Origin: a virus
Strand: one strand, 5' to 3'
DNA: 24,142 bases
IMG/VR virus record: IMGVR_UViG_3300013129_000033
Location: 1 to 24,142 of that record
In this document: one piece after another, positions 16,618 to 24,142 of the stretch
Position numbering within the stretch: position 1 is the first letter of the stretch
Layout: each line of letters begins with the position of its first letter
The notes under the pieces: generated by a model
Seen by the model: only the letters and a program-made list of their open reading frames with translations
The model's database searches: none
What the model was told of the DNA's origin: nothing
Position numbers and translations under genes: made by a program

Positions 16618-16644
16618 ATTATACTCTTTTAACTAAATTGTCAA
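16618..16644 (-). promoter_or_regulatory. Possible sigma70-like promoter before the chaperone pair
   Basis: On the minus strand both hexamers are exact consensus, TTGACA (16644-16639) and TATAAT (16623-16618), but the spacer is only 15 bp. The -10 ends 7 nt before the GTG start. The -35 lies within the last codons of the upstream gene. In an AT-rich sequence this could be chance. Confidence 0.35.
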
Positions 16645-17517
16645 CGGATTGAAAGTTATTTCGTAATTTGTATAGCAAAAATTAGTAAGTACAGTCTCTA
16701 GAGAATTTTCTGAAGATTGGGTATAATCTAGCGTACCCATGTCCTTAGGGAAGCAATTTTTAAAAACAATAGTTTTTCTTACATTCCATGGGTTGTTATA
16801 ATTAGGAATTACTGAATTGGAGTTACTGTTCAACTGAGCGTTAGCTTGTCTTTGTTGGTCAGTCTTTCCTACACCTGTTCTTGTCATTAAATAGCAGGTA
16901 ATATCTTGTTTTAAATCATATATACCTTTGTTAGCGCTAATAGCATTGTTTCTTGCAATAGAAGAGTAATATGACATTAAAATAATCCAAGGTCTAATTA
17001 CGTGATCAATGAAGCTTACTGAGCTCTCATAAAATGAGAGAGAAAGGCTATTTAAATTACCACTACTTCTGCTGCCTACATACGGAACACTTCTAAACCC
17101 CCTTATTTCCATTTCTGGAACTGTAGAAAAATTATTTTCTCCTGCAAAATTAAAAGATCTACAAAAAATACATCCAATATTTCGAGTAAGTTTATTGTTA
17201 GATAAGGAATTAATAGCATGATCGTTATTTCTAAATATTTCACTTAGACCATTTAAATTCTGTTCTCCTATTAAGAAAGGTATATTAAAGCTAACCATCC
17301 AAAAAGATTTTAACGGTACAGATGCTGCATATTGAGAAAGAGCATCAAGAAACTGATTTTGTGGGTTTCTTATATCTACCCCAATATTTGTAATCAATGG
17401 AGGGGGGTTGTACGGCAATTGCTGACTAGCAATATTTGAAATTGCCCCGCTACTATTAATAGGTGGTTGATTACCTGTTGAATTTGTAGCGTTTAACAAC
17501 GCTAAGAGATCAGCCAT
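16633..17517 (-). CDS. Tube-fold tail protein, 294 aa (third gp19-like protein)
   Basis: A 294-aa protein with a disordered N-terminal 60 residues (Asn/Pro/Ser-rich) and a core that looks like the gp19/tube fold: KSFWMVSFNIPFLIGEQNLN, a central PEMEIRGFRSVPYVGSRSSG strand pair, LNSLSLSFYESSVSFIDHVI with the following RPWIILMSYYSS helix, and a closing strand FCYTNYEITFNPLTI. Compare the tail tube protein, where 'F-x-x-P-G, D-L-T-F-Y, I-x-x-F-F' appear in the same order. Its role may be a tube adaptor or terminator, or a minor tube protein. It starts a late operon with a 5-nt-gap late box after the terminator that closes the sheath/tube operon. Confidence 0.68.
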   Translation of the reverse strand: MADLLALLNATNSTGNQPPINSSGAISNIASQQLPYNPPPLITNIGVDIRNPQNQFLDALSQYAASVPLKSFWMVSFNIPFLIGEQNLNGLSEIFRNNDHAINSLSNNKLTRNIGCIFCRSFNFAGENNFSTVPEMEIRGFRSVPYVGSRSSGNLNSLSLSFYESSVSFIDHVIRPWIILMSYYSSIARNNAISANKGIYDLKQDITCYLMTRTGVGKTDQQRQANAQLNSNSNSVIPNYNNPWNVRKTIVFKNCFPKDMGTLDYTQSSENSLETVLTNFCYTNYEITFNPLTI

Positions 17518-17595: not shown

Positions 17596-18168
17596 TTATG
17601 GTATTGGTACGCGAGCTGGAGTAAGTGGTCCTACTACAGCAGAAGGGAATGTCTTTTCCCAGAATTGATAGGCAATCCCAGCAGTAAAGGATAGCACATT
17701 TCCTTGACCTGTTGTATCCATTGATAGTGCTCCTACACTTGTTGGATAAATACCAATTAAAGTGTAACCGGTAGTTACAGCTTCTGGTGATATATTATTG
17801 TAAGTATAGAAAGAAATCACATTAGATTGGCTTACAGTATAAGCACCTCCAGATGATCTATTATCAAATGTAGCATAAGAAATAGCTTCAAAGAAAGATC
17901 TAATAACTTGTGGTTGGTCACAATAGAAAGTTAAGTCCATTGTTCCAGTGTATTGAGCAGTACCAGGCACTGAAAAATTCAGACCCATAAAAGGTACAGG
18001 TACTGAATTAATCGTACGGGCTGGTATTTCTGCAGTTCTTAAATATACTAGATCAGTCTCTGTTAGAGAAAAACCTTCATAAAGTAAATTACTGATTCTA
18101 TATTGGTGATCGCGCAAGAAATCTCTTTGCTGCATCACGTTGAAATATTCTGTTATGTTTAGTGGCAT
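17596..18168 (-). CDS. gp19: Major tail tube protein gp19
   Basis: A 190-aa protein (T4 gp19 is 163 aa). Tube-family pattern: DHQYRISNLLYEGFSLTETD at the start, the loop and strand of TAEIPARTINSVPVPFMGLN, the conserved FSVPGTAQYTGTMDLTFYCD strand, and QPQVIRSFFEAISYATFDNR, the helix after it. The C-terminal domain ends in a strand YQFWEKTF. gp19 hexamers stack to form the inner tube through which DNA passes. It follows the sheath gene by about 20 bases, as in T4, has its own good Shine-Dalgarno (AAGGAA, 8-nt spacing), and is followed by the terminator. It is probably transcribed from the sheath promoter. Confidence 0.92.
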   Translation of the reverse strand: MPLNITEYFNVMQQRDFLRDHQYRISNLLYEGFSLTETDLVYLRTAEIPARTINSVPVPFMGLNFSVPGTAQYTGTMDLTFYCDQPQVIRSFFEAISYATFDNRSSGGAYTVSQSNVISFYTYNNISPEAVTTGYTLIGIYPTSVGALSMDTTGQGNVLSFTAGIAYQFWEKTFPSAVVGPLTPARVPIP

Positions 18169-20721: not shown

Positions 20722-21363
20722 TTACGGAATGATGTTAAAAGTTAATTGACTGAACTCAAAAGAAAAGCTCGAAGCTATCTCTTCACTAGCCTGATAATTA
20801 AAATTAATTCCATTGAGAGAAGTTGCAAAGCATTGGGTAAAAACAAATTCTCCTAACACCTGATTGTACTCGTTCAAAGGTAATAATGAAATTTGGGAGG
20901 CATATTTTGGTATGTAGCTAGGCTTTTTAGGGTCTATTAAAGTCTTTGTACCAGGATCTAATAACCCTGAATTATTTTCAGCATCAAAAACAGATTTTTT
21001 TGGATCGTTTAATAAAGCAAGCCACTTCCAAATAACATAGTAATTGTAAAACTCACTATCAATTGTAAAGTTAACTGTTACAGGATCGTAGGCTGGTCTT
21101 GAAAATGAAGTAACCTTTGGTACCTGTCCCTGAAAAGGTACACTTACCGAAGGTACACTAATAGCCGGTACTACATTTCCCCATACAGACATTTGTAACT
21201 TATCAGAAATAATCTTTGATGGTGTCTCATCACCGTACCTGACATCGATTTTTCTTAATGCCTCTGGCATTGTTAAAATAAGAACAAACTTATCAACCCT
21301 AGCCTTGTTAAGAATAGCCTGGTTGAGGTAATTATGTTTTTCTGTTAAATCTCTATAACTCAT
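20722..21363 (-). CDS. Tube-fold tail protein, 213 aa (second gp19-like protein)
   Basis: A 213-aa protein with the order of elements seen in tail tube proteins: DKFVLILTMPEALRKIDVRY, a strand ISVPSVSVPFQGQVPKVTSF, the strand and helix RPAYDPVTVNFTIDSEFYNY followed by YVIWKWLALLND, and a final domain with FVFTQCFATSLNGINFNYQA ending in a strand FSFEFSQLTF. I start it at ATG 21363, one base after the preceding stop and with GGAA 10 nt upstream. A longer GTG-start reading would overlap the upstream gene by about 60 bases and adds sequence unlike the family. It could be a tube terminator or head-side tube protein (gp3-like role). It precedes the sheath gene. Confidence 0.68.
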   Translation of the reverse strand: MSYRDLTEKHNYLNQAILNKARVDKFVLILTMPEALRKIDVRYGDETPSKIISDKLQMSVWGNVVPAISVPSVSVPFQGQVPKVTSFSRPAYDPVTVNFTIDSEFYNYYVIWKWLALLNDPKKSVFDAENNSGLLDPGTKTLIDPKKPSYIPKYASQISLLPLNEYNQVLGEFVFTQCFATSLNGINFNYQASEEIASSFSFEFSQLTFNIIP

Positions 21364-21364
21364 A

Positions 21365-21673
21365 TCAGCATTTCCATCTTCTACGAGCTGCACAACCTCT
21401 TGTATCCTTGCCTCCACAACCACCTGAAGGTATCCAGGCCTTGGATCTAGAACAGAAGCTCTTGCGTCTCTTAGAAGCCTTAGAACCTTTCTTTACTTTT
21501 CCAGTTACGGGTGCCTTTAATTTGCTACCTGTTGCTCTGTTATATTTGGCTCTACCTTTTGCAGTCAAACCAGCACCTTTGCTGGCTGGTAATTTTTCTC
21601 CACGCTTTATTGATAAAGAAGGCCCTTTTTTGGCTTCAGTCAACAACTGCTCAACAAGTTGATTGTAAGTCAT
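21365..21673 (-). CDS. Small basic phage protein (DUF6321-like), candidate head internal protein, 102 aa
   Basis: A 102-aa, strongly basic protein. The core has the pattern KGAGLTAKGRAKYNRATGSK, then LKAPV, KASKRRKSFCSRSKAW, DTRGC and ARRRWKC at the very end, which I recall as the domain of unknown function DUF6321 found in phages. It has four cysteines (74, 86, 94, 102). The N-terminus MTYNQLVEQLLTEAKKG resembles T4 internal proteins (MKTYQEFIAEA) and contains L-x-E (LTE, residues 11-13), the T4 prohead protease recognition type. I start at ATG 21673 because a GATAAATA late box ends 5 nt before it. The upstream ATG at 21700 lies inside the terminase gene. A DNA-binding packaged protein is my hypothesis. 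Confidence 0.78.
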   Translation of the reverse strand: MTYNQLVEQLLTEAKKGPSLSIKRGEKLPASKGAGLTAKGRAKYNRATGSKLKAPVTGKVKKGSKASKRRKSFCSRSKAWIPSGGCGGKDTRGCAARRRWKC

Positions 21674-21678
21674 AATAT

Positions 21679-21686
21679 TATTTATC
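21679..21686 (-). promoter_or_regulatory. Late promoter box for the small basic protein
   Basis: GATAAATA followed by ATATT and ATG, a 5-nt gap. The TAA in the box is the terminase stop codon. This decides the start of the 102-aa gene. Confidence 0.72.
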
Positions 21687-23394
21687 TCCAACGCTCCCAT
21701 CCTTGAGAAATTAAATCTTCCATTTCTGGGTTTTCTGGCTCATTGCCGAAGTTAGTAAAGAAAGAAGGCATCTCGTTAAAGTCTTCTTCGCTATCTTTAT
21801 CTTGAGCAATTTTTCTATTTGTTAAAATCCCAAAATCATCAACAAACTCCCCTGGTTGAGAATAGCTCAATCTCTTAATTTTGAATGGTTTTTGATTCTT
21901 ATCATACTCTAAAACCTCAAAATACTTCTCACAAACTTCTCTGTCAAGAATAATTAAGGCCCAGGCCATACCCATTACTCTGTCATCTAACTCCCCAGAT
22001 CTAGCACTCCAGGTACCGTTTTTGTTTCTTGTAAAACTCTTTAATTCATTGAGTAGATCAACAGATTTGATCTTTACTCTCATAGTTTCATTCAACCAAT
22101 ATCTCATATTGGTCATACACTTGTACTTGGTGTTTGTATGAGAATGAATTCCAGGTCTATCAAAATGTATCTTGCCAGATTTAACAGTGTATGTTACAAT
22201 CTTGGTGTAATTGTATTCGTTTTTAAGGTTATCGCAAACACCACCACCATGATTATTACGCTCAATCAAAACCGGAGGAGAACCCCAGTGCTTACATATC
22301 TGATTAATCTTTTGAGTGAACGTGTAGGGGTTGATATTGTTGTTGCAGTACTCTGCTACCTGACGAATATTAGTTAAATCTGTAATATCAATCACCTCTA
22401 CTGAGCTAGCATTTTGACCTACACCTTCTGCGACGTCAACACCTATAACATATAAGCTAGCCTTATTTGGGTTTTCCCACATCTTATATGACCCATCTTC
22501 AAAAATATGCAAAGGTGGAGCAATATTTGATTTTAAATGCTCATATAATTTGTCTGATAGAGTGCTCTCCCCAACTTCAATAAATTCGTTGCCGAACTCT
22601 TGATTGAATGTCTCTTCACTGCCAATTTCTCTAATTGTATTCTGCTTCCAAACTTCATCTCTACCAGGTATTTCCCACCAATCAATGCGTTCTGCAGCCC
22701 AACCATTTTTTCCTTCAATGGCTCCAGAATACAAATCATAAAACAAATTCTTTGTACCGTTAGGAGTAGAAGCAACAAATATCTTGGATTGTTTGGATGA
22801 AGAAATAATTGGAAAAACAGATTTCCAGAACTTGTCAACAATGTTATTTGGAATGAAAGCCAACTCATCCAAGATTAGAACGTTTACGGAATCACCGCGA
22901 CCAGCATCAGAACTTGTAGTAGAAATACCAATTGAAGAGTCATTTTCTAGTGTTATAGATGTTTTACCGTATTCTTTTACCCCTGGTTTCAAGTAGTTCG
23001 GTAACATCTCATAAGCCGTGCGTATACGACGAAAGATGTTTATCGCTGTCTTCTCTTTGTTAGCTACAACAAGTACTCTCTTATCCTTGTTGAAGCATGC
23101 AATCCAAAGGGCATAGATTGTCATTAGAGTCGTTTTTCCTGATTGGCGACTCGCTAGCAATGAAACAAATCTTTCCTCATCCAAGGCTTTAAGGACTCTT
23201 AATTGACAAGGATGCAGTTTAATTAACTGTTTGCCTTTATCTAGATTAATAATATAGAAAAAGGTTTGAGCAAAGTATAAGATATCATCACGACTATTCT
23301 CCAAATGCTTGAGCATTTCAGGAGTCCAATCAAATTGTGTGTCTGGTTTGGGGAGATTTTTATTACCTAAGTAGTAATTTTCTTCGGCTGGCAT
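21682..23394 (-). CDS. gp17: Terminase large subunit gp17
   Basis: A 570-aa DNA packaging motor and headful nuclease (T4 gp17 is 610 aa). ATPase domain: Walker A SRQSGKTT at residues 82-89, Walker B VLILDE at 172-177 followed by LAFIPNN, and the coupling motif STPNG at 209-213. Nuclease domain of RNase H fold: first Asp in VIGVDVAEG (Asp320), Glu378 in VLIERNNHGGG, and acidic residues Asp470/Asp471 in ELDDRVMG. Both domains appear intact. The ATG is 5 nt after a TTTAAATA box and has no Shine-Dalgarno. It is divergent from the scaffold-like gene with only 20 bases between start codons. The small terminase is not adjacent, unlike T4. Confidence 0.97.
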   Translation of the reverse strand: MPAEENYYLGNKNLPKPDTQFDWTPEMLKHLENSRDDILYFAQTFFYIINLDKGKQLIKLHPCQLRVLKALDEERFVSLLASRQSGKTTLMTIYALWIACFNKDKRVLVVANKEKTAINIFRRIRTAYEMLPNYLKPGVKEYGKTSITLENDSSIGISTTSSDAGRGDSVNVLILDELAFIPNNIVDKFWKSVFPIISSSKQSKIFVASTPNGTKNLFYDLYSGAIEGKNGWAAERIDWWEIPGRDEVWKQNTIREIGSEETFNQEFGNEFIEVGESTLSDKLYEHLKSNIAPPLHIFEDGSYKMWENPNKASLYVIGVDVAEGVGQNASSVEVIDITDLTNIRQVAEYCNNNINPYTFTQKINQICKHWGSPPVLIERNNHGGGVCDNLKNEYNYTKIVTYTVKSGKIHFDRPGIHSHTNTKYKCMTNMRYWLNETMRVKIKSVDLLNELKSFTRNKNGTWSARSGELDDRVMGMAWALIILDREVCEKYFEVLEYDKNQKPFKIKRLSYSQPGEFVDDFGILTNRKIAQDKDSEEDFNEMPSFFTNFGNEPENPEMEDLISQGWERWR

Positions 23395-23414: not shown

Positions 23415-24142
23415 ATGAAAGATCTATCAGAAGATGTAGTTCACTCATTTCCTGGATTTGAAAAACTCCTTGAACCATTCAAAATTACGGGTGATGCAAA
23501 AGTTAAGAAAGACTTGGTTACCCCAAAAGATGCTCCACATTATTCAGCCAACTCAAAGGCCTCAGATGTTGATAGCAAAGAGCCAGTAATGGCTAAGGCC
23601 TATGAACCTTCAAAGGGTACTAAGGGCAAACAGAAAAAGAATAAAAAGGCTAGAAAAAAGCTAAAGGAGAGCATAAATAATTTCAGAAGCAACACTATGA
23701 AATCTCAAAAAAACAAATTTGATGAATTGTTCGAAAATGTCATGGGCGAAGAAGATCTAGATATGACTCTAGGTACTGATGGTGCCGGTGATATGGAAAT
23801 GGACGCCGATCTCGAAGGTGGCGGTCTTGGTGGCGGTCTTGGATCCGGTGACACAGCTCACGGAGATTTGGCCGAGAAGATCGAAAATATTATCTCAGCT
23901 CTCAATGACTTGAAGGCATCTCTAGGCTCTGAAGGAGCTGATGATATGGACGATAGTATAGAAGGAGATGAAGATGAAGGTGAAGAAGATCTCGAAGATG
24001 CTGACGAGGGTTCAATGTATGAAGGTGGCAATGATATGCCAGAAGAAGCCATTGTTAGCGAGCCAGAGCCAAAGCCACATAACCCACAACCAGCTATTAA
24101 CACCTTGACCGGCAAGGGTAACAAGCCAACTGCAAGTGGATA
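23415..24142 (+). CDS. Prohead core/scaffold-like acidic protein, partial
   Basis: The frame is open for 242 codons to the end of the window, so the C-terminus is missing. It begins MKDLSEDVVHSFPGFEKLLE. Residues about 70-86 are a very basic patch (KGTKGKQKKNKKARKKLKES), followed by MKSQKNKFDELFENVM. The rest (from about 110) is strongly acidic and Gly/Asp/Glu-rich, with a short helical insert, GDLAEKIENIISALNDLKAS. A small charged protein with a basic patch and acidic body next to the terminase in a T4-like phage suggests a prohead core or scaffold component. It may be shown by capsid genes to the right. No homologue is recognised by motif. It has its own late box and no clear Shine-Dalgarno. 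Confidence 0.68.
   Translation, partial: MKDLSEDVVHSFPGFEKLLEPFKITGDAKVKKDLVTPKDAPHYSANSKASDVDSKEPVMAKAYEPSKGTKGKQKKNKKARKKLKESINNFRSNTMKSQKNKFDELFENVMGEEDLDMTLGTDGAGDMEMDADLEGGGLGGGLGSGDTAHGDLAEKIENIISALNDLKASLGSEGADDMDDSIEGDEDEGEEDLEDADEGSMYEGGNDMPEEAIVSEPEPKPHNPQPAINTLTGKGNKPTASG

Follow-up and report, generated by a model that had tools for sequence, protein, structure and literature searches.

The window, meaning the whole stretch of 24,142 nucleotides analyzed here, holds on its minus strand a small gene of the DUF6321 family, located between the gene for a T4-type terminase large subunit (TerL) and a tail-tube-like gene. The features of this locus are as follows.

21682-23394, minus strand: TerL, T4 type (Pfam PF03237, E 1.3e-20; PF17289, E 4.5e-8).
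21679-21685, minus strand: ATAAATA, late-promoter-like sequence immediately 5' of the DUF6321 gene start (motif count).
21365-21673, minus strand: DUF6321 gene, candidate internal head protein, 102 aa plus stop (translation, Pfam).
21635-21673, minus strand: candidate capsid-targeting propeptide, residues 1-13 (MTYNQLVEQLLTE); boundary [LI]xE in 25 of 26 tagged relatives, predicted helix.
21374-21577, minus strand: DUF6321 domain, residues 33-100, with four Cys (Pfam, E 9.6e-16).
20722-21363, minus strand: tail-tube-like gene, 3' of the DUF6321 gene (phrog_45, E 1.6e-13, for the ORF 20722-21423).

The N-terminus of the DUF6321 gene product reads MTYNQLVEQLLTEAKKG (translation of the minus strand from 21673 to 21365). 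The gene starts 8 nt from the end of TerL (21682), and the ATG of the tail-tube-like gene is at 21363. The whole protein contains four Cys and 28 Lys plus Arg against 4 Asp plus Glu, and its score against DUF6321 (PF19846) is 58.6 bits, above the curated cut-off of 28.5. Thus, both the small basic protein adjoining the terminase and the basic four-cysteine body of the DUF6321 type, which had been proposed in an earlier sequence-only reading of this DNA, were confirmed. The first 13 residues fall outside the DUF6321 match (33-100), and the match to PHROG 10346, a family without an assigned function in PHROG, covers residues 14-102 (E 4e-27). The part after LTE (residues 11-13) consists of 89 aa with 28 Lys plus Arg and 2 Asp plus Glu, and has a computed pI of 11.5. 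An alternative in-frame ATG at 21700 would give an ORF of 111 aa running into TerL; we took 21673 as the start because the tags of types B and C described below start at the corresponding Met. The ATAAATA sequence at the start, which we liken to T4 late promoters, suggests late expression. Of 20 gene starts in the window, which were chosen by hand and one of which is off by one base, 9 have [AT]TAAATA no more than 30 nt upstream, versus about 0.35 expected. At its end, the window is 100% identical over 6121 bases to part of a 68-kb contig (G001), in which the DUF6321 gene is identical.

Further observations concern the neighbouring genes. The phrog_45 tail-tube family is matched by three window genes (20722-21423, 17596-18168, and 16633-17517), near a gene for a sheath protein of 831 aa. 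An acidic, Gly-rich reading frame on the plus strand (23415-24142) is divergent from TerL and runs past the window end; its relatives adjoin TerL at L131 (in G001, the same virus), L139, L147, and L154. At L147 (2975-5731) and L154 (1488-4244), the TerL homology extends over about 2.7 kb versus 1.7 kb, which suggests an insertion in the terminase gene.

DUF6321 is widespread: a tblastn search with a composed query found it in 537 of 50,697 phage records, and an IMG/VR scan gave at least 597 related stretches, from which 80 loci were kept. A DNA pattern for the four-cysteine motif, which lies within the domain, provided 36 stretches; among these, L132 is truncated, L135 has no tag, and L137 is a fusion in which DUF6321 follows about 250 residues, with ...SFNQLIDRLLE preceding the domain. 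A contig scan also found 25 DUF6321 loci in records titled bacterial or archaeal. In the literature library that we searched, no paper names DUF6321. All of the sampled IMG/VR loci together gave 102 distinct N-termini, and most of the DUF6321 genes sampled start straight away with MAKKxPSL-like residues, without a tag. The sequence [LI]xE at the domain boundary was found in 26 of the 102 (the 26th being the fusion) and was absent from the other 76. The sequence-only reading had proposed to check whether homologues keep the N-terminal LxE; the tagged relatives do, in 25 of 26 cases, but the distinct N-termini overall do not.

For comparison of the tags, we used 26 distinct complete sequences, leaving out L137. 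They can be classified as type A (M[TKN]Y..LV.QLLTE, n=5), type B (M[ND]F, then [IL]LEE, n=11), and type C (M..LFE..F, n=10). The tag ends in [LI]xE immediately before the domain in 25 of the 26, versus a mean of 3.35 and a maximum of 10 in 2000 shuffles; the sole exception is L142, with VLE. The shuffle serves as a guide and not as a probability, because the tags are related, were gathered in part by a DNA pattern within the domain, and were anchored by a procedure that picks Glu. Among the Glu-anchored tags, 24 of 26 have Leu at P3 and 24 of 26 have an aromatic residue at P11, P2 is variable (E, T, N, L, or D), and P1 is Glu in all 26, which is partly a product of the anchoring. Furthermore, a helix rich in Leu and Glu makes a chance LxE likelier, which weighs against an argument from the tag. 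The genomic place differs among the types, as judged by the positions of genes matching 15 panel proteins, which were taken from the window, G001, and G003. Genes of type A have TerL on one side and the tail tube on the other. Most of those of type B stand between gp13 and gp4, and Peptidase_S77 (S77), gp22, and capsid genes are often close by, except at L159 and L160. As for type C, none of nine loci shows a gene of the panel (L006 was outside this test). Around the genes of types B and C, in loci of 2.6 to 14 kb, TerL was not found. The tag is constant although the gene differs in place, which argues against an effect of the neighbouring genes.

The co-occurrence of the tag with a prohead protease was then considered. 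The contig of the window is too short for judging the protease, and G001, sharing 6121 bp at 100% identity, was used instead; it holds a T4-type prohead protease (Peptidase_S77, E 5.1e-34). Among IMG/VR records of at least 30 kb, sorted by hand, S77 was present in 12 of 16 with a tagged gene, whereas it was found in none of 20 phage records of at least 30 kb with a short N-terminus (18 from IMG/VR, DSL-LC05, and S-CRES3). The records are not independent; for example, G043 and G044 share one DUF6321 gene. The tagged contigs with no S77 match (G004, G029, G035, and G042; sizes, in ascending order, 33, 43, 79, and 130 kb) may be incomplete. The search took in 66 of the 80 IMG/VR loci, the other 14 being on contigs shorter than 10 kb, and 13 of the loci that one other scan alone had given. 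It was run in batches that gave 4 of 21, 17 of 41, 0 of 48 (a batch without a positive control), and 1 of 14 (with G001 as the positive), and G001, G004, and G005 were included in two batches. The L-x-E site of prohead-protease type proposed from the sequence is thus conserved in the tagged type and co-occurs with a T4-type protease in most of the large tagged records. However, the named T4-like cyanophages break this split between tag and protease: the DUF6321 proteins examined are fused and, as a rule, untagged. S-CRM01, which is outside the above counts, has the protease and a protein of 516 aa ending in DUF6321, and gp21 is annotated in both S-SM1 and S-ShM2.

According to the available text of one study, proteins with capsid-targeting sequences carry an N-terminal propeptide of 10 to 19 residues that ends in L/I-x-E, and in T4 IpIII residues 4 and 7 function in targeting and residues 8 and 10 govern processing (PMC9026906). 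The window protein resembles T4 IpI, IpII, and IpIII in having a short tag at the N-terminus with [L/I]xE as its end, a basic sequence, and a gp21-type protease in the virus, and its LTE at residues 11-13 is within the 10 to 19 residues of that definition. IpII and IpIII begin with MKTYQEFIAE in the T4 record. The [L/I]xE end is at residue 10 in these two proteins and at residue 19 in IpI, whereas the window tag is 13 residues long and its hydrophobic residues are more widely spaced. Thus, the start of T4 internal-protein type that had been proposed is supported with respect to the tag and its LxE end and by a near match in cyanophage P-SSM7 (see below), but the exact spacing of IpII and IpIII is absent, as it is in IpI. 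The window protein also differs from all three in having four Cys and a far more basic body; the ratio of Lys plus Arg to Asp plus Glu is 28:4, versus 13:11 in IpI, 19:15 in IpII, and 34:25 in IpIII. BLASTP of the window protein gave nothing at E up to 100 against IpI and IpII and only two-residue matches against IpIII.

We compared 12 larger cyanophage proteins ending in DUF6321 (156-849 aa): those of the T4-GC119 cluster (records of P-SSM2, P-SSM7, S-SM1, and S-ShM2) and similar proteins of S-SCSM1, ACG-2014f, P-RSM1, Bellamy, P-TIM68, S-RIM8, S-CRM01, and S-CREM2. They share the C-terminal domain with the window protein, and the gene is near gp16/gp17 in 11 of 12; unlike in the window gene, DUF6321 is preceded in the same protein by other sequence, which in most cases consists of modules rich in Cys and Lys. 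Only the P-SSM7 protein (PSSM7_194, 172 aa) has a T4-like tag at the N-terminus; it begins with MKTYSQFIEE, agreeing with IpII and IpIII at positions 4, 7, 8, and 10, and the other 11 have none. By eye, the residue before DUF6321 is Glu in all 12, but a single one of them has L or I at P3, so that the junction does not follow the strict T4 rule. The word [ST][FY]..F.{1,2}E occurs somewhere in 5 of the 12 proteins, versus 0.14 by shuffling: in P-SSM7 it is the N-terminal tag, in S-ShM2 it precedes the DUF6321 junction by 12 residues, and in P-RSM1, S-RIM8, and S-SM1 it is followed by a CWK module after 0 to 4 residues.

Data on virions are available for some of these relatives. The available text on the S-CREM2 virion proteome lists ORF137 (108049-109521) with four unique peptides and 4.1% coverage (PMC10665884), the part of the protein detected not being given. 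SCREM2_gp137, the gene at these coordinates, matches DUF6321 (E 3.5e-10), and its GenBank product is hypothetical. In S-SCSM1, for which 45 virion proteins by mass spectrometry are reported in the accessible part of PMC9602691, the product of SSCSM1_29 (DUF6321, E 3e-22) is named 'virion protein', and in the record this label is on most of the known structural proteins examined and not on TerL or TerS. In the S-ShM2 record, the remark 'similar to Synechococcus phage S-SM1 protein' accompanies gp13-15, one of two gp18, gp19-21, gp23, gp3, GC190, GC426, and GC119, and is absent from gp16, gp17, gp22, uvsY, and gp43. The remark may mark proteins detected in virions; it is a hint only, because the records of S-SM1 itself call the protein hypothetical. 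The reports of DUF6321 in virions thus concern proteins of related phages, listed for S-CREM2 and labelled for S-SCSM1. As for the short DUF6321 genes of other phages (S-TIP37, KBS-P-1A, P60, DSL-LC05, and Venkman), the domain is the same and they lie mostly in late or head regions in the records examined, but they are untagged, usually have two Cys in the IMG/VR sample, and come with no S77 match in the large records searched. The accessible part of a podovirus paper contains no mass spectrometry (PMC9860041). In Ma-LMM01, the DUF6321 gene is among replication genes.

Similar tags were found on unrelated small genes. In all 10 loci of type C, the gene that follows DUF6321 is preceded by GGAG, has a 7-nt overlap with the DUF6321 stop, and reads MLTF[KR]QF...E (another in-frame ATG is two codons earlier). 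Seven of the 10 match the T4 spacing if any hydrophobic residue is allowed at position 8, and 5 do so if only L or I is allowed; in L006, L153, and L220, the Glu is one residue earlier. The domain behind this tag is CWKGY in six and SAYKSGAVVKCR (SAYxSG) in four. The third gene of the four SAYxSG loci encodes a GKPC domain and starts with MKFDSLVNFILE, MNFDSLVNFILE, MKFNNLVQILIE, or MKFNDLYQILME, and a 43-aa CWKGY gene in G044 starts with MNFDKIVKAILTE; these tags resemble those of types A and B. The tag-bearing neighbours are small, Lys/Cys-rich, and unrelated to DUF6321. The GKPC, SAYxSG, CWKGY, and DUF6321 modules are fused in several cyanophage proteins (L290, L291, L293, L300, L301, and L303) and are separate tagged genes in the type-C contigs. 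At L013, a short untagged DUF6321 gene and a short untagged SAYxSG gene are on one contig, in parallel with the tagged pair of the type-C contigs. At L145, a separate gene 390 nt past the DUF6321 stop has the domain RPVLGVTEYITIDGIGS...DSGNEAYN with the tag MKTFKKFIQE, and this domain is fused behind a CWKGY module in L156, L221, and L223.

With rough gene calls for eight contigs, the strict T4 geometry was found in 15 of 1646 genes, versus 2.7 in shuffled sequences and 2 of 1431 internal controls; in G001, the virus of the window, it was found in 0 of 86 genes. Under a broad rule, only G044 and G029 of the eight exceeded every shuffle. G044, which spans L244-L255, gave 49 of 334 (shuffle mean 18.3, maximum 33), including the DUF6321-adjacent gene MSRFDYYVEKFLTE, G029 gave 12 of 96 (mean 4.8, maximum 11), and G001 gave 10 of 86 (mean 4.7, maximum 12), not above all shuffles. 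Likeness of the whole tag to other genes of the same contig was null in G044, G057, and G035, where the best match did not exceed 30 shuffles. Two further patterns were set aside: a looser T4-like pattern (44 of 1646 versus 22.4, about twofold) was not relied upon, and one modelled on the type A/B and GKPC tags themselves (4 of 1646 versus 0.04) is circular and illustrative only.

AlphaFold2, run with 33 sequences, predicted the window protein with a mean pLDDT of 84.3 and a pTM of 0.62. The model, made without Met1 and numbered one lower than the protein, has an N-terminal helix at residues 3-15 over the tag, a less certain stretch, and then three helices in the domain (protein residues 38-48, 65-80, and 92-100). 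The fold is uninformative on function, because a fold search of the PDB gave only one match, which is not meaningful (E 6.4), and the 27 matches in BFVD are mostly named DUF6321 themselves, including the S-SCSM1 virion protein.

Taken as a whole, we regard it as likely that the window protein is a T4-type internal head protein, targeted to the capsid, cut after LTE, and injected. Residues 1-13 would be a propeptide docking the protein in the prohead core, and a gp21-type protease would cut after Glu13; the remaining 89-residue, very basic, four-cysteine protein would stay among the packaged DNA and enter the host together with the genome. Packing into the head by means of the tag is the most probable of these steps, as conservation of the tag, co-occurrence with the protease, and sharing of the tag with other genes all point to it. 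Cleavage after Glu13, judged from the motif, is also likely. Injection with the DNA, argued by analogy with T4, is somewhat favoured. The available text of PMC12373910 states that T4 internal proteins enter the host and that IpI-III block type IV restriction enzymes. We infer, without a firm claim, a job in or on DNA, which may be binding, condensing, or the blocking of a host defence as by IpI-III.

One alternative is that the protein is a head-packed peptide that binds or condenses DNA and stays there, without injection or an anti-defence role. The 28 Lys and Arg against 2 acidic residues in the mature form and the conservation of Lys and Arg through the domain would fit such a peptide; nevertheless, entry of T4 internal proteins into the host speaks, by analogy, for injection, and we consider this alternative rather unlikely. 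Another possibility is that the N-terminal helix docks a partner such as terminase or portal, that DUF6321 is a packaging helper outside the head, and that LxE is incidental. In type A and in DSL-LC05, which has no S77 match, the gene directly follows TerL, in Venkman it is close to TerL, and the domain is widespread without a tag. However, the tag is kept in types B and C, where no TerL was found nearby, similar tags are on unrelated small genes, and DUF6321 proteins are reported in virions, which makes a packaging helper improbable. Least probable of all is an ordinary host-interaction protein, with a Leu/Glu-rich N-terminus by chance or descent and a place in virions as a contaminant: tags within a type are closely related, coverage in S-CREM2 is low, the S-SM1 record says hypothetical, and whole-tag likeness within contigs is null, but three tag types have the boundary motif in common, most of the neighbouring genes in type C have the T4 spacing, the P-SSM7 tag is nearly that of T4, and two phages list or label DUF6321 as a virion protein.

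The head-packed role that the sequence-only reading had given to DUF6321 as a domain is therefore supported in part. The tag, the protease, the tags of neighbouring genes, and the virion reports on related proteins favour it, although the majority of N-termini are untagged. Because 76 of the 102 distinct N-termini lack the motif and S77 was found in none of the 20 records with a short N-terminus, head targeting and cleavage are not the whole story of DUF6321. In phages with an untagged gene and no S77 match, the domain has a different mode of action or a different way into the head.

A more tentative possibility, to which we give somewhat less than even weight, is that DUF6321, CWKGY, SAYxSG, and GKPC make up a set of exchangeable head-cargo domains, all small and Lys/Cys-rich, in related T4-like phages and cyanophages. 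In one phage group, each would be a separate gene with a tag of its own, and different cargo would be exchanged behind the same tag at a single locus. In cyanophages, they are fused; Glu precedes DUF6321, some of the proteins have words like the T4 tag ahead of another module, and such a fusion might be cut by the prohead protease into separate injected peptides.

The new point of the present analysis is a likely role, in some phages, for the uncharacterised domain DUF6321. The tags provide a means of listing other candidate head-packed proteins from sequence, and the head-cargo role is directly testable in cultured cyanophages, for example P-SSM7 and S-CREM2. If true, it would extend the injected-protein strategy of T4 to cyanophages and their relatives.
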